Below, one piece after another: positions 5,279-17,600 of a stretch of 22,031 nucleotides of DNA. The position numbers and the translations under genes are program-made. The stretch lies in the IMG/VR virus record IMGVR_UViG_3300034012_001661, positions 1 to 22,031 of that record. One strand, written 5' to 3'. The notes beneath the pieces were generated by a model, which made no database searches, was not told the DNA's origin, and was given only the letters and a program-made list of their open reading frames with translations. How positions within the stretch are numbered: the stretch's first letter is position 1; each line of letters starts with the position of its first letter. This stretch comes from a virus.

Positions 5279-5331
5279 ACCTCACGCTCGCCATCCCTGC
5301 TTTGGCGACCCTCCACGCAAAGGAACTGACC

Positions 5332-5982
5332 ATGACGACCACCATCATCCACATCAACCTCGACGCCGTCGACCAACGCCTCCGCCACGGCGAACTGTGG
5401 ACTCACGGCTGGGGAGACTTCACGTCGCCCGAGTCGGCCACCTGCCTCCACGGTGCCATCCGCTACTGCCAGCCCATCAAGGGTGACGCCTACCTGATCG
5501 AGCAGGTGGGCAAACGTTATGGATTCGGCATCGGCGACAACGACAACGCCGACACGTGGGATTTGATCAAGGCGAAGGTGATCCCCGACATCACCGACGA
5601 CATGCTTGCCGACACGTTCGGCCCCAACTGGGAACCGATCGTCGCCTTTGTCCGTCGAGTTGCCACGCTGACATCCAACGAAGCAGGGCAGCTGTTCGCC
5701 GCGTGGGACGCCGCGAGGGTCGCCGCGAGGGTCGCCGCGTGGGTCGCCGCGTGGGACGCCGCGTGGGACGCCGCGAGGGGCGCCGCGAGGGGCGCCGCGT
5801 GGGACGCCGCGAGGGGCGCCGCGAGGGGCGCCGCGAGGGGCGCCGCGAGTGGTCTTGTCGTCCGTGATCTGATCGGCCAGCACGGCTTCAACCAAGCCCA
5901 CTACGACCTTCTCACGCAGCCGTGGGCGACCGTCATCGGCAAGGTTCATCCCGACGACGCTGATCGGTTGGTGGCGACGTGA
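5332..5982 (+). CDS. Protein with an internal A-A-[WR]-[DVG] tandem repeat
   Basis: A 216-aa protein starting at ATG 5332, 5 nt after AAAGGAAC (5319-5326); an in-frame TTG at 5302 is less likely. Residues 1-120 are a mixed alpha/beta region without a recognised domain. Residues 123-174 consist of a four-residue repeat, Ala-Ala-[Trp/Arg]-[Asp/Val/Gly], coded by 12-bp units, and should form a long helix with Trp and Arg along one face. A normal sequence follows to the end. Similar Ala/Trp/Asp repeats occur in several phage and bacterial proteins of unknown role. Unit number probably varies among relatives. It restarts translation after a 53-base gap in the overlapping operon. Confidence 0.8.
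   Translation: MTTTIIHINLDAVDQRLRHGELWTHGWGDFTSPESATCLHGAIRYCQPIKGDAYLIEQVGKRYGFGIGDNDNADTWDLIKAKVIPDITDDMLADTFGPNWEPIVAFVRRVATLTSNEAGQLFAAWDAARVAARVAAWVAAWDAAWDAARGAARGAAWDAARGAARGAARGAASGLVVRDLIGQHGFNQAHYDLLTQPWATVIGKVHPDDADRLVAT
5698..5853 (+). repeat. Thirteen 12-bp tandem repeats
   Basis: The unit is GCCGCG[T/A]GG followed by GAC, GTC or GGC. Twelve units are complete and the thirteenth (5842-5853) is degenerate. The period is a multiple of three, so copy number can change without a frameshift. The repeat keeps several frames open on both strands, producing false antisense ORFs. Confidence 0.95.
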
Positions 5983-6578: not shown

Positions 6579-6835
6579 GCACGTCAGAGTCTCGCGAGAT
6601 AGCGCCGCTTGGTGACGGCATCGCCAAGCACTTGCGGGTGCTCTCGGCGGCCCACTCTCGTCGCCGCCCAAGGCTGGCCGCAGACCTGGAAGAAGCGGCC
6701 GACGAGATCGACCGCTTGCAGGGCGTGGTCGACCACCTAGCAGAACTGCTCTCGTCCTACTCGTGCGGCTGTGGCGACCTCTACACCCCACCCGCTGTGG
6801 ACTGGGAGTGCGAGAACTGCCGGGGTGAAGCGTGA
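6575..6835 (+). CDS. Small protein with helix and zinc-ribbon-like Cys pairs
   Basis: An 86-aa protein from GTG 6575 in a 4-nt overlap with the preceding gene. Residues 31-60 form an amphipathic, probably coiled-coil helix. C64-x-C66 and C79-x-x-C82 in the tail could hold one zinc ion. No family is recognised; the Cys pairs suggest DNA or protein binding. It immediately precedes the WhiB-like gene, also by a 4-nt overlap. Confidence 0.7.
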   Translation: MSTSESREIAPLGDGIAKHLRVLSAAHSRRRPRLAADLEEAADEIDRLQGVVDHLAELLSSYSCGCGDLYTPPAVDWECENCRGEA

Positions 6836-7290
6836 CTTCCTCCAGCGCCACCTGGCGCCACCTCGCAGCCTGCGCCGGCAGCGACCCGAACGACTGGGTG
6901 TGGATCAACTCAAACAAGCTGAAGGACGGCCGCAAAGCCGCCAAGCTCAAGCAGATCTGCGCCACCTGCCCGGTCAGGGTTGAGTGCCTCGACACCGAGC
7001 TCGCCGTCATGCGTACCGGTGAAACGTCCTACGGGGTGTTCGGTGGCACCGACGTCTACGAACGTCGCGTCATGTTGGGGATGTCGGCCGACTTCCGACG
7101 CCGACAGCACCACCGTCCCTCGTCGCCGATGGAGCACGGCACGGTCGCCGGGTACAACAAGCACTTCCGCTACCCGGACCTGTTCGGTTCGCCGTGTGAC
7201 GCCTGCAAATGGGCCAACAGTCAGCGGTTCGTCGAGTACCGACGCACCCGACGCATCGGCGTCGGCGTCGCTGAGGGTGGCGCGGCGTGA
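6832..7290 (+). CDS. WhiB-like iron-sulfur transcription factor with Cys-rich tail
   Basis: A 152-aa protein from GTG 6832. The N-terminal domain has the four WhiB cysteines C14, C43-x-x-C46 and C52, which bind a [4Fe-4S] cluster, followed by the turn G68-V-F-G-G72, close to the consensus GVWGG. Family members bind sigma factor region 4 and DNA, and are confined to actinobacteria and their phages, which supports the host assignment. Phage WhiB proteins (for example of mycobacteriophage TM4) can interfere with host WhiB2 and cause superinfection exclusion; the same role here is an inference. Residues 101-125 (HGTVAGY ... SPCDAC) are an unusual extension matching the repeat of the HNH protein at 1791. 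Confidence 0.92.
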   Translation: MTSSSATWRHLAACAGSDPNDWVWINSNKLKDGRKAAKLKQICATCPVRVECLDTELAVMRTGETSYGVFGGTDVYERRVMLGMSADFRRRQHHRPSSPMEHGTVAGYNKHFRYPDLFGSPCDACKWANSQRFVEYRRTRRIGVGVAEGGAA

Positions 7291-8246
7291 ACGCCACCGT
7301 CCTGTTCGCCGGTGCGGGCGGCTCGAGCGTCGGGCTCGAGCACGCCGGCTATCACACCGTCGGCTACGAGTACTGGAACCGTGCCGTCGACACTCACAAC
7401 GCCAACGGCATGCAGTGCCACCTCCACGACCTGTCACACCCGGCAGGCGACAACGACATCACACCGTGCGACCTGTTGTGGGCGTCGCCACCGTGCCAGC
7501 CGTTCAGCGCAGCCGGTGACGGTGAAGGCGAGAACGACGACCGCGACGGCTTCCCGTGGACGCTGCGGATCATCGCCAAGCTACTCCCGCCCGTGGTCAT
7601 CATCGAGAACGTCAAGGGTCTGACCTTTGCCAAGCACGCCGACTACTTCTCGGCAGTGCTCCGCCATATCGCAGCCCTCGGCTACCGGGTCGACTGGCGG
7701 GTGTTGAACAGCGCCGACTACGGCGTCCCGCAGACCCGTGAGCGGTGCTTCATCGTTGCCCGCCGCGACAACGGGCCGATCACCTGGCCGGCGCCAACCC
7801 ACACCCAGGGCGACTCACTGTTCCTCGAGCCGTGGGCGACGATGGCCGAGGCGCTGGGGTGGGATGAGAGCGCCGTGCTCGTTGGCAACAACACGATCGC
7901 CGGCGGCCCGCTTGCGGAACGCTGCGCCACGGAACCGGCGATGACCGTCGGCACCAGGGGCGACCTGTGGACGTTGCACTACCGCCAGACCAACCGCGAT
8001 GGCGAACCGATCACCTGCGACGTCACCGACCGACCGGCGCCAACCGTCGGCACACAGTCGGGCAGCCAATGGATTGTCAACAACGCCATCCGCCTCACCA
8101 TTGCGGAACTGGCGAAGTTGCAGGGCTTCCCCGACGGCTATGTGTGGACCGGCACCAAGACCGACCAGGCCCGCATGATCGGCAACGCCGTTTGCCCGAT
8201 CATGGCGCAAGCACTCGCAGAGGCGAACAGGCCGGTGAAGCGATGA
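7287..8246 (+). CDS. DNA (cytosine-5) methyltransferase
   Basis: A 319-aa C5-methyltransferase with the ordered motifs: I (FAGAGG, residues 7-12, SAM binding), IV (PPC70QPFS, catalytic Cys), VI (E107-N-V), VIII (Q149-T-R-E-R) and X (IGNAV near 300). The target-recognition region lies between about 165 and 265. It would methylate cytosine in a short site, most simply to protect phage DNA against host restriction. No cognate restriction gene is nearby, so it is an orphan enzyme. The start is GTG 7287 in a 4-nt overlap with the WhiB-like gene. The specificity cannot be read from sequence. Confidence 0.95.
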   Translation: MNATVLFAGAGGSSVGLEHAGYHTVGYEYWNRAVDTHNANGMQCHLHDLSHPAGDNDITPCDLLWASPPCQPFSAAGDGEGENDDRDGFPWTLRIIAKLLPPVVIIENVKGLTFAKHADYFSAVLRHIAALGYRVDWRVLNSADYGVPQTRERCFIVARRDNGPITWPAPTHTQGDSLFLEPWATMAEALGWDESAVLVGNNTIAGGPLAERCATEPAMTVGTRGDLWTLHYRQTNRDGEPITCDVTDRPAPTVGTQSGSQWIVNNAIRLTIAELAKLQGFPDGYVWTGTKTDQARMIGNAVCPIMAQALAEANRPVKR

Positions 8247-12048: not shown

Positions 12049-12989
12049 TGGCATTCATCGCACTCGTAGGCACCAAGCCGATGAAGGCCACCAAGGGCCA
12101 GACCGGCACCTGTCTAGATCCTGCCTGCCGCGGCGAGATGATCGCCAAGATCGGCTCAGGACTCATCAAGCCCCACTGGGCGCACCGCCACGCCGGCGAC
12201 TGTGCGCTCGAGGGTAACGAGGAGTCTGGTTGGCACCTTACGTGGCGCACCCTGTTCGAGTTGAACGGTTGCGGCAGTGAGGTTGTCTACGCCGACGGCA
12301 AGCACCGCGCCGACGCTGTCACCCCCGACGGGCGCGTCGTTGAGTTCCAGACCACATGGCTGCCGTGGCAGTCCATCCGCTCACGCGAAGCCACCTACCA
12401 GAACATGGCGTGGATGTACCGCGTGACCGACTCGCAGGCCGACCTCGACCTCGGCGACACTGCGCTCGACGGGCTCGCCGAGTTCCACTGGTACACGCCC
12501 CGCCGGTCGATCCTCGCCCACGAACGGCCCGTCTACTGGCACCGCTCCGACGATGCGATCTGGTCGATCAAGGCCATCTACCGCACGGCCGACACAACCG
12601 ACGACGGCAACGTCGTATGGAAGGGCGTCGCCCAGCTCGTCGGCACGGACTGGGGCGACTTCGCCGAGCGCATCAGCAACGGCGAGCAGTTCGCCGACGC
12701 GCCCACGTTCTACGGATTCGAAGCCGTGGAGGCACGCCGCGCCTACGCCGCCGCCCGCCAACTCGAGCAAACGGACGAAGCATGGATCGACATGGACGGC
12801 TACGACTGCCAACTGTCGACCCCGTCACGCGGTCACCTCACGTTGGTGCGCCCCGGCATCGTCTACGACCCCGACAAGCTCGTCCACCTCGAGCGGTTCA
12901 AGGCCACCTGCCCCGCCTGCCAGGCGTGCCGCAAGCCGATGGTCTGCGGGCAGCGCAAGCTCCACTACACCTGCGGCGGTGTCGCATGA
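12048..12989 (+). CDS. CoiA-like PD-(D/E)XK nuclease with zinc sites
   Basis: A 313-aa protein from ATG 12048. Residues 18-57 look like the CoiA zinc finger (C22, C27, H43-W-A-H46, C52), followed by H63. The nuclease core is H86-R-A-D89-A, then V98-E99-F-Q101, and R111/R113. This order is that of CoiA-like nucleases. A second Cys cluster ends the protein (C288, C291, C294, C300, C309). CoiA acts in processing recombination intermediates during natural transformation in firmicutes; phage relatives are of unknown role. Position just before the primase-helicase (4-nt overlap) suggests replication or recombination. Expression probably depends on the structured leader upstream. Confidence 0.82.
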   Translation: MAFIALVGTKPMKATKGQTGTCLDPACRGEMIAKIGSGLIKPHWAHRHAGDCALEGNEESGWHLTWRTLFELNGCGSEVVYADGKHRADAVTPDGRVVEFQTTWLPWQSIRSREATYQNMAWMYRVTDSQADLDLGDTALDGLAEFHWYTPRRSILAHERPVYWHRSDDAIWSIKAIYRTADTTDDGNVVWKGVAQLVGTDWGDFAERISNGEQFADAPTFYGFEAVEARRAYAAARQLEQTDEAWIDMDGYDCQLSTPSRGHLTLVRPGIVYDPDKLVHLERFKATCPACQACRKPMVCGQRKLHYTCGGVA

Positions 12990-15769
12990 CCCCGACCAAG
13001 CTCACGCCCCGCGAGTTCATCTCCACCATCTACCGCGACGTCGACGGCGGTTGGCTCACCCTGTTCAGTCGCAACCCATCCACGGGCGAGCAGAGCACCG
13101 ACTGGTTCGCCACCGACCAGACGGCCGAGATGGTTGACCGCGCGATGGAGCTCTCCCTCGAGCGCGACGTGTGGTTCGGTGTCGCTACCCGCACCGACAG
13201 GCTGCATGACGGCCGTCGTGGTGGGGCGGCAGACTGCGCCCACATCACCGCGCTATGGGTTGACATTGATGTCGCTGGCCCCAACCACAAAGGCGACGTC
13301 GACTCCTACCCGGACGCCGACGCAGCGCGACGGCTGATCAAGGAGTTCCCGGTGCCGGTCACCACCGTCGTCAAGACGGGCGGCGGATACCACGGGTACT
13401 GGCACCTTGACGAGCCGATCGAACGCGAGGACGCCCTAAAGCTCCTCACCCGTTGGGGCGCACACTGGTCCTGCTATGCCACGGCCGCTGGGTACAAGGT
13501 CGACAACGTGTTCGACCTGCCTCGCGTGCTGCGCGTCCCTGGCACGTTCAACCGCAAGAACGGCGGCGAGGTGCTTGTCGAGGTGCTGTTCCACGACGCC
13601 ACGCGCGTCTATGGCTACAGCCACATCGTCGACCACACCGACGAGCCACCCGACGACCCGAAGCACGCACAGCGACACGTCCCCTACACCGGCGTCGAAC
13701 GCCCGGGCGACGACTTCAACGCCCGCAAGACGGGATCAGACGTGCTCGCCATGGCGGGCTGGACCCTCGGCAAGTCCAAGCGCAACGGCGAACAGGCGTG
13801 GATGCACCCGTGGGGGCCGTCGACTGAAGAGTCGGCGACGGTGTACCCCGACAACCACATCACCATCTGGTCAGACAACGTCCCCAAGCACTATCCGACG
13901 ATCACCGTCCGCACCCCGTACGACCCGTATGGGCTGTACGCCCGCATCTTTCACGGCGGCGACTTCCACGAGGCCACCATTGAGCTCGCGAAGATGGGCT
14001 ACGGCGCCCCCTCGATCACGGCGCTGCTCGGTATCGACGACATCCCCAGCTACAGCGACACCCCACCGTCGGACGACCAGATCGCCGACATGGAGGCCGC
14101 ACGCAGCAAGTACCAACTGTTCGTCGGCGGGCAACGCCACCTCGACGACATCGTCAACGAGCTGAGCACGGCCCTCCTCGCGATCAACGACCCGCCCCAC
14201 CTGTTCAAGCATGGTGACGTCGTCTCGCAGTTCACCCGCGGCGAGCTCGAGGCCGTTGACAGGGTGCGGATGGTGAACGTCATCGAGTCTCACATGCGGC
14301 CCGTCATCATGAAGAAAGACGGCGTGGCGCCGGCACGGGTCGAGCAGTCGGCCATCGACCTCGCGCTACTCCGACTCGTTGACCGCCTACCAGAGGTCGA
14401 GGGCGTCGTCAGGTCGCCGTTCCTGCGTGCCGACGGCACCGTCTGTGCTGATGTCGGCTACGACGTGCGTAGCGGCAACTACCTCGCGTCCACTATCCAC
14501 ACCAACGTCCCCGACGCACCCACCAGGGCCGACGTGGACTCGGCAGTCGCACGGATCGACGACTTGATCCACGACTTCCCGCTCAAGAGCGACGCAGACC
14601 GGGCGCACGTCTTCGCCCTCCTCCTCACACCCCTGGTGCGCCACCTCGTGCCCCTGACGCCGCTGTTCATCATGGACGGCAACGGCCCAGGCGTCGGCAA
14701 GAACCTCCTTGCCGAGTCATGCATGTACGTTGCCACCGGTGACTGGGTGCAGACCGACCCCCTGCCGACCGACGCCGAGGAGCAGCGCAAGCAGATCACT
14801 GCGCTGATGTCCACCGGCCGCAGTGTGGCGCTGTTCGACGAAGCCCACATCATCACCGGGACGTCGTTGGCGCGGTTGATCACGTCGACCACGTGGGGCG
14901 ACCGTCTACTCGGCTACAGCAAGCAGGTCAGCTACCCAAACCGCATCACCGTCGTCGCCCTCGGCAACAACGTCGAGATCCAAGGCGACATGCCGAGACG
15001 GTCGATCATCGTCCGGCTCGAGTCGCAACTGGCGAGGCCGTATGACCGCCAGGACTTCCGCCACGACAACCTGCGCGACTGGGTGGAACAGAACCGCCCC
15101 GAGCTCGTCGGAGCGTTGTTGACGATGCTGGTGTCATGGCACCAAGCAGGACGACCCAAGAGCGCCAAGCGACTCGGCTCGTTCGACGCATGGGCCGAGA
15201 TCGTCGGCGGTGCGCTCGACCACGCCGGCGTCAAGGGGTTCATGTCGAACCTCGGCGAGATGCGCGCCCGTGGCGCCGGCGACGAGCAGGACATGCACGC
15301 CCACCTGTGGGAGCTGCGAGGCCACTTCATCGACGCCGGGTTCACCGCCAAGCAAGTCGGGCGGATGATCGAAGACGACCGGCTCGACTCGTGGCCGCCC
15401 CGCATGGGCAAGGACAAGAACTACGCGCAGTCCCTCGGACACGTCTACCGGCACTACTCGGACCGCTGGATGGGCGACATTCGCATCAGGCAGGACGGCC
15501 TATCGAATGGCGCCCGCCGATGGGTGCTCGAGCTGCTACCTGTGGATAAACCCCCCGAATCAGTAGGACTTGTAGGACTTGTAGGACTTGCTCCCGCTAC
15601 ATACGAGAAAAATCAGGTCATAGAGGGGGCGCCGGCGGTAGTCCTCGACGCTCCGGAAGGCCCGGACAAAGTCCTACAAGTCCTACAAGTCCTACAGGAC
15701 GACCCCGAAGTCGAAGTCGACGAATGGGGCGACCCGATCCCCACCCGCACGCCCCAAGCATGGGACTGA
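12986..15769 (+). CDS. Primase-polymerase / helicase fusion replication protein
   Basis: A 927-aa protein from ATG 12986 in a 4-nt overlap (the frame is open from 12356 but over the CoiA-like gene). The N-terminal domain is an archaeo-eukaryotic-type primase: L90-W-V-D93-I-D95 metal site, K130-T-G-G-G-Y-H136 and R183-V-P-G-T-F-N. A helicase-type ATPase follows: Walker A G567-P-G-V-G-K572-N and Walker B F617-D618-E619-A-H, then a polar strand (ALGNN) and an arginine pair (MPRRS). It would unwind the origin and prime synthesis, and no phage polymerase gene is visible, so the host's is probably used. The last 75 residues are repetitive (VGLVGLVGL and VLQVLQVLQ), coded by a 9-bp repeat array that may be the origin. 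Confidence 0.92.
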   Translation: MTPTKLTPREFISTIYRDVDGGWLTLFSRNPSTGEQSTDWFATDQTAEMVDRAMELSLERDVWFGVATRTDRLHDGRRGGAADCAHITALWVDIDVAGPNHKGDVDSYPDADAARRLIKEFPVPVTTVVKTGGGYHGYWHLDEPIEREDALKLLTRWGAHWSCYATAAGYKVDNVFDLPRVLRVPGTFNRKNGGEVLVEVLFHDATRVYGYSHIVDHTDEPPDDPKHAQRHVPYTGVERPGDDFNARKTGSDVLAMAGWTLGKSKRNGEQAWMHPWGPSTEESATVYPDNHITIWSDNVPKHYPTITVRTPYDPYGLYARIFHGGDFHEATIELAKMGYGAPSITALLGIDDIPSYSDTPPSDDQIADMEAARSKYQLFVGGQRHLDDIVNELSTALLAINDPPHLFKHGDVVSQFTRGELEAVDRVRMVNVIESHMRPVIMKKDGVAPARVEQSAIDLALLRLVDRLPEVEGVVRSPFLRADGTVCADVGYDVRSGNYLASTIHTNVPDAPTRADVDSAVARIDDLIHDFPLKSDADRAHVFALLLTPLVRHLVPLTPLFIMDGNGPGVGKNLLAESCMYVATGDWVQTDPLPTDAEEQRKQITALMSTGRSVALFDEAHIITGTSLARLITSTTWGDRLLGYSKQVSYPNRITVVALGNNVEIQGDMPRRSIIVRLESQLARPYDRQDFRHDNLRDWVEQNRPELVGALLTMLVSWHQAGRPKSAKRLGSFDAWAEIVGGALDHAGVKGFMSNLGEMRARGAGDEQDMHAHLWELRGHFIDAGFTAKQVGRMIEDDRLDSWPPRMGKDKNYAQSLGHVYRHYSDRWMGDIRIRQDGLSNGARRWVLELLPVDKPPESVGLVGLVGLAPATYEKNQVIEGAPAVVLDAPEGPDKVLQVLQVLQDDPEVEVDEWGDPIPTRTPQAWD
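15563..15589 (+). repeat. Three 9-bp direct repeats, left arm
   Basis: GTAGGACTT in tandem three times with no spacer; coded as VGLVGLVGL. Exactly inverted at 15669-15695. Confidence 0.97.
15669..15695 (-). repeat. Three 9-bp repeats, inverted right arm
   Basis: AAGTCCTAC three times in tandem, the exact reverse complement of 15563-15589; coded as KVLQVLQVLQ. The perfect identity after different coding use argues for a DNA-level role or recent inversion-duplication. Confidence 0.97.
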
Positions 15770-17466: not shown

Positions 17467-17600
17467 CTGACCCCAGGGGTACCACCACGGAGCGTGGCGG
17501 GCTTCCGGACCCCGTCTCCCGGGGCGGTTCTCTCTCTCCCACCATCGTCGCAGGTCAGAGGCACTTTCCGAGGGCATACCCCAGGGGGTAGGTGTAGCTG
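17467..17600. other. Structured G/C-rich gap before TerS; possible cos region
   Basis: ACCCCAGGGGT (17470-17480) and TACCCC-AG-GGGGTA (17577-17590) are near-identical palindromes at either end of the gap. Between them are CCACGgagCGTGG (17485-17497) and CCCC/GGGG arms around 17513-17525, followed by a TTCTCTCTCTCCC run (17528-17540). The position beside the terminase genes fits cos, or a terminator. Neither is proven. Confidence 0.35.

Follow-up and report, generated by a model that had tools for sequence, protein, structure and literature searches.

A putative iteron origin of replication inside the 3′ end of its own primase-helicase gene in a probable actinobacterial phage

The segment at 15541-15695 is predicted to be a replication origin located within the 3′ end of its own initiator gene, which encodes a primase-helicase predicted to bind iterons, and we estimate the probability of this reading at roughly 0.83. 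As to its type, it is best read as an iteron origin, placed within coding sequence, that serves a self-loading D5/SF3-like helicase. The window, that is, the whole stretch of DNA analyzed, is the complete IMG/VR record IMGVR_UViG_3300034012_001661 (22031 bases). Genes for an integrase, an HTH repressor-like protein, WhiB, a terminase, and a portal protein are present in it, and the source is probably a temperate phage with an actinobacterium as its host. Since the 22-kb record is a fragment, a second origin may be present elsewhere.

The array begins with a DnaA box on the minus strand at 15541-15549 (TGTGGATAA on the window strand, corresponding to TTATCCACA), which is the only exact copy in the window, with 0.01 copies expected over the whole window. 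Three tandem iterons, GTAGGACTT, are found on the plus strand at 15563-15589, and three further iterons in inverted orientation (AAGTCCTAC three times, minus strand) occupy 15669-15695. All six iteron copies are exact, and the window holds no further exact copy. The spacer between the two blocks (15590-15668), the proposed unwinding element, contains an AT-rich patch at 15595-15624. The GC content of the 30-mer starting at 15595 is 40%, and only 0.05% of the 30-mers in the window are equally low. The positions given in a preliminary description of this DNA for the DnaA box, the three direct iterons, the 79-nt gap, and the three inverted copies are all exact. The A/T-richer center mentioned there is found locally, in this 30-mer, whereas GC over the entire 81-nt spacer is 62% (versus 66%).

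The two blocks form a perfect 27-bp inverted repeat, the longest in the 22 kb for arms at most 300 nt apart, whereas the longest inverted repeat in 100 Markov simulations was at most 14 bp. The array zone is also the best two-orientation repeat window across all 22 kb. The array lies within coding sequence, and the distance from its end to the end of the ORF is 74 nt. The exact 18-mer GTAGGACTTGTAGGACTT has 12 matches in IMG/VR, all in other contexts and without a second inverted array, indicating that the iteron unit is lineage-specific.

The codons of the two arms should be noted. The arms encode different peptides, VGLVGLVGL (arm 1) and VLQVLQVLQ (arm 2). The arm 1 codons GTA, GGA, and CTT represent 1.8, 5.1, and 4.5% of the codons for their amino acids, respectively, and the chance of this codon choice given VGLVGLVGL is about 7e-14. 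None of the 844 nine-codon windows in the remainder of the gene is as rare as arm 1. The array is constrained at the DNA level rather than at the peptide level. The earlier argument that protein selection explains the inverted repeat poorly stands. This is also a clear case of a replication-protein tail shaped by the DNA encoding it, as had been suggested. Alternatively, the repeats could have arisen by chance duplication, or as a peptide repeat in an unconstrained protein tail, with no role as DNA, since the tail is partly disordered and could take up repeats at little cost. However, the arms are inverted and encode different peptides, rare codons are used, and arrays with other units recur, frequently outside coding sequence, in about 100 relatives. 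A chance or peptide repeat is thus practically excluded.

The gene carrying the array (12986-15769, plus strand) encodes the proposed initiator, a primase-helicase of 927 aa. Its PHROG matches are DNA polymerase/primase families at the N-terminal side and helicase-type families at the C-terminal side, while the Pfam, NCBIfam, and PDB sequence profiles gave no name for the helicase. The helicase and a C-terminal winged-helix-like domain, the proposed iteron binder, are encoded at 14099-15540 (plus strand). The latter domain, a helix-helix-hairpin in the AlphaFold model, corresponds to about 15347-15535 (plus strand). The mean pLDDT of the model is 89, and the helicase and the helix-helix-hairpin are confident (mostly over 90). 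The top structural matches are chains of SaPI5 Rep, the primase-helicase of that island (Z 15.0 and Z 14.4, the latter over residues 2-473), followed by the vaccinia-type D5, PriRep1, and NrS-1 helicases. The identity to SaPI Rep is about 10% in the structural alignment, and no SaPI match at E up to 1 emerged when PDB chains were searched by profile. According to the model, the candidate for the initiator combines a D5/SF3-like helicase with a winged-helix-like domain at its C-terminus, which would bind DNA.

The C-terminal tail bearing the array (15541-15769, plus strand) is absent from the plasmid homologues, which end in the alignment where this tail starts. Its confidence is low at model residues 488-520 and 550-556, and a short helix at 522-534 has moderate confidence. 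Arm 1 encodes residues 489-497 in a low-confidence stretch, and arm 2 falls within the 522-534 helix.

The array recurs after the same helicase domain in relatives. Relatives were collected by tblastn on plasmids and phages, and alignment-based scans added 28 and then 76 loci from IMG/VR and 48 loci from actinobacterial genomes. An IMG/VR scan with the single protein found no relatives, whereas the alignment-based scans did. Of the loci, 152 include the whole helicase C-terminus. In 99 of these (12.9 expected), no other window of the locus scores as high for repeats in two orientations as the zone that immediately follows the helicase domain, though the relatives are mutually related and not independent, so that p-values from this set are only indicative and overstate the case. 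No array stands out in the other 53, which are mostly polymerase-fused. The automatic array caller fails at some loci (L070, L031, L112, L153, and L168), which were read by eye or omitted from the tree counts.

The iteron unit differs by lineage: it is GTGGGAAC in the Streptomyces plasmid pWTY27, and GCAGGGAC, CCCCGCAA, AAACCCGC, AAACTCAT, GGTGAGTT, GGAGGTAT, CTGCGGGGA, and more in others. The two orientations, a modal spacing of 9 bp, and an AT-rich spacer (54% GC versus 66% for the loci) are kept across lineages, whereas the unit and the peptide change. The modal spacing is equal in coding and non-coding arrays, indicating that the 9-bp period is not imposed by codons. The preliminary description had called for a comparison of whether relatives keep the iterons and their inversion while the peptide varies, and the outcome is clearly in favor of an origin.

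A second sequence motif in the spacers scored about twice as high as the shuffled control, but it turned out to consist of alternating purine-pyrimidine stretches and was rejected as a motif. The longest alternating run averages 11.9 in the spacers and 6.4 in control stretches (nominal P 2e-7), while the run of 8 in the spacer of the window is not significant. Runs of up to 43 nt are seen in the spacers of L071, L094, L140, L147, L156, L168, and others. In GC-rich genomes, such runs may act as an unwinding or Z-DNA-prone element.

A precedent for function is pWTY27, whose RepA is a homologue of the window helicase (29.7% identity and E 1e-39 in tblastn, also by alignment and tree), although the identity over the helicase is only about 30%, a point against the reading. 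RepA binds direct and inverted repeats of its unit beside repA in vitro, and a 300-bp region beside repA is needed for replication of this bidirectional replicon (PMC3583192). The window and pWTY27 share a homologous helicase, iterons of 8-9 bp in both orientations at the 3′ side, a spacer, and an actinobacterial host. In pWTY27, however, the array is wholly downstream of repA and non-coding, has more copies, and is without a DnaA box, and the primase is a separate gene. Short direct and inverted iterons with a spacer directly after the helicase domain, as in the pWTY27 type, are found in the window, but since the array ends inside the ORF, the window is regarded as a variant rather than a plain member of this type. 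The candidate origin first proposed for the 3′ end of the primase-helicase gene thus gains support from the arrays of relatives and from the binding and replication requirement of pWTY27 RepA (PMC3583192).

An array of this kind need not be an origin in itself. The array might be a regulatory site (an autoregulation operator, a copy-number or incompatibility element, or a partition site), used by the same or another protein, with the origin located elsewhere. Short inverted repeat arrays have such operator, copy-number/incompatibility, or partition roles in plasmids, and operator-like palindromes are found in the same linker of polymerase-fused relatives. However, the array follows a helicase domain and not a promoter, a consensus search found no transcription terminator or promoter near it, and the pWTY27 array is required for replication (PMC3583192). 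We consider a regulatory site quite unlikely.

SaPI Rep and SCC Cch2, both self-loading helicases, bind iterons through their C-terminal domain, and in each case these iterons lie immediately downstream of the helicase gene. Two hexamers have been proposed for them (PMC7581432). Such helicases (SaPI5 structures 7ola and 7om0; PriRep1, 7pds) resemble the candidate initiator in the D5/SF3-like hexameric helicase and the C-terminal DNA-binding domain, and iterons are likewise beside the gene. They differ in that they belong to Firmicute islands with a non-coding origin (that of SaPI5 is putative, just downstream of the gene). In plasmid RA3, oriV lies at the 3′ end of repB and depends for its function on that end of the initiator gene together with an AT-rich region and repeats (PMC9455977). 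The likeness is in the origin layout, but the AT-rich region and the repeats of RA3 run on downstream of the gene. In a 2011 survey of actinomycete integrative elements, the Prim-Pol-associated Rep was putative and RepAM was a predicted rolling-circle initiator (PMC3218068).

In the pRN1 type, primase, SF3 helicase, and winged helix are combined in one protein and the origin is 3′ of the gene, as in the window, but there the origin, located downstream of the gene, is a long stem-loop and has no iterons. An intact stem-loop is needed in pRN1, and similar stem-loops have been noted in phages (PMC4234260). This precedent raises the main rival explanation, that the origin is recognized as an extruded DNA stem-loop, as proposed for pRN1, in which the arms matter by pairing and not as separate iterons. 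The 27 perfectly paired bases and the folding energy of the strand (−75.6 kcal/mol, z −7.5) are consistent with it. However, the orientations in some relatives are unequal or interleaved (ten direct and two inverted; ++-+--+++) and beyond any single hairpin, and single units are kept in relatives while the spacing varies. A stem-loop origin is therefore considered unlikely.

The origin of lambda should also be compared, because the preliminary description called the arrangement typical of lambdoid origins. In lambda, the iterons and an AT-rich element of ori lie inside the coding sequence of gene O. The analogy holds for the iterons inside the initiator gene, but not for the initiator, since the gene in the window encodes a helicase and O is not one. 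The lambda iterons are also longer and in the middle of the gene.

For the iteron origin, the following mechanism is proposed. The C-terminal winged-helix-like domain of the primase-helicase would bind the GTAGGACTT iterons. Since the two blocks of three iterons are inverted around the AT-rich patch, they may seat two helicase hexamers facing opposite ways, and the hexamers would melt the spacer. Primers would be laid by the primase part or the host primase and extended by the host polymerase, probably in both directions. Host DnaA, recruited through its box, may act as an accessory.

The position of the array relative to the gene varies. The array follows the stop codon in plasmids such as pWTY27, lies across the stop codon in many Amycolatopsis, Saccharopolyspora, and Nocardioides elements, and is inside the ORF in the window, L100, L028-L031, L140, L146, L148, L157, L162, and L173 (some read by eye). 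L100 (Blastococcus) is the closest to the window by identity (37-38%). L173 matches the design of the window exactly, with three iterons of nine each, a spacer, and three inverted iterons, and its peptides are AGTAGTAGT and SPQSPQSPQ. In a helicase tree of 58 rows, picked mostly for having an array, the window is placed in a group of ten (SH-aLRT 99), in which all nine labelled rows carry the array in the gene. The exact place of the window is unsure because its own branch is long. On this tree, the in-ORF label changed at least six times, and three of the changes are forced by well supported branches.

In two or three relatives, a single gene seems to hold a helicase module and a DNA polymerase A module with the array between them. 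In L126 and L123, and with less clarity in L138, the array is preceded by the helicase and followed by a long C-terminal part, which in L126 and L123 includes a DNA polymerase A domain. At the other end of the protein, relatives seem to have exchanged the primase part that precedes the helicase, judging from the N-termini of L028-L031 and L100 compared with that of the window. The N-terminal part of L028 has a weak Toprim-like match, and that of the window matches phage DNA polymerase/primase families. In L100 and L146, the protein ends in a CxxC-CxxC zinc-ribbon-like stretch after the in-gene array.

A role of DnaA at the window array is plausible. The DnaA box that had been assigned to the origin is present and unique, but it is outside the conserved core, as DnaA boxes are absent from the iteron-bearing relatives, though they recur in the polymerase-fused sister group. 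In this group, TTRTCCACA occurs 7 times in the post-helicase zone and never elsewhere in those loci. Val-Asp pairs preceded by T are also concentrated in this zone (24 of 49, compared with 11 of 249 in the rest of these ORFs), suggesting selection on the DNA word TGTGGA. Both signals, a box of the TTRTCCACA type and T before Val-Asp, are seen in the window. In polymerase-fused relatives (phiAsp2 type; L111, L114, L117, L120, L127, L128, L136, and others), the helicase-polymerase linker contains DnaA boxes as well as palindromes close to TGACACTnnAGTGTCA. This palindrome, with up to 3 mismatches, is found at 0.98 per kb in the linker and 0.12 per kb elsewhere, and, as a phage operator would, it also appears elsewhere in the loci.

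GC skew does not support the origin. The cumulative skew does not turn at the array, and its minimum in the window is at 17582. Skew flips at the array in 38 relatives are inconsistent, with 6 from minus to plus and 4 from plus to minus.

The components are all known: iteron origins beside self-loading helicases (pWTY27, SaPI, and SCC), and origins reaching into the initiator gene (RA3, PMC9455977; lambda). No report of this helicase family with the array inside coding sequence was found in the literature searched, which covered few subscription journals, and the in-gene placement looks new for the family. It is about an even chance that, across a broad clade of phage replication proteins, the origin is part of the coding sequence, with iterons (and, in some, DnaA boxes) in the post-helicase linker, in two or three cases before a fused DNA polymerase A. 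The initiator gene and the origin would then be one inseparable unit, in which the DNA unit changes while the protein reads through. If the origin truly works inside the gene, one gene could be a nearly complete replicon. Working from sequence alone, the analysis assigns predicted origins to about a hundred mostly actinobacterial phages, plasmids, and probable integrative elements, among which an annotated replication site was seen solely in pWTY27. Since the unit changes between lineages and the arrangement stays, the helicase family is a natural set for studying the co-evolution of initiator and origin.

Other parts of the window also show short repeats and overlapping genes. A 12-bp tandem repeat of 12.8 copies is located at 5697-5849 inside the ORF at 5302-5982, and its peptide is rich in Ala/Gly/Arg and Trp-Asp, with a weak glycine-zipper match. 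At 6832-8246, a WhiB gene is directly followed by a C5-cytosine DNA methylase gene, and the two overlap by a few bases.
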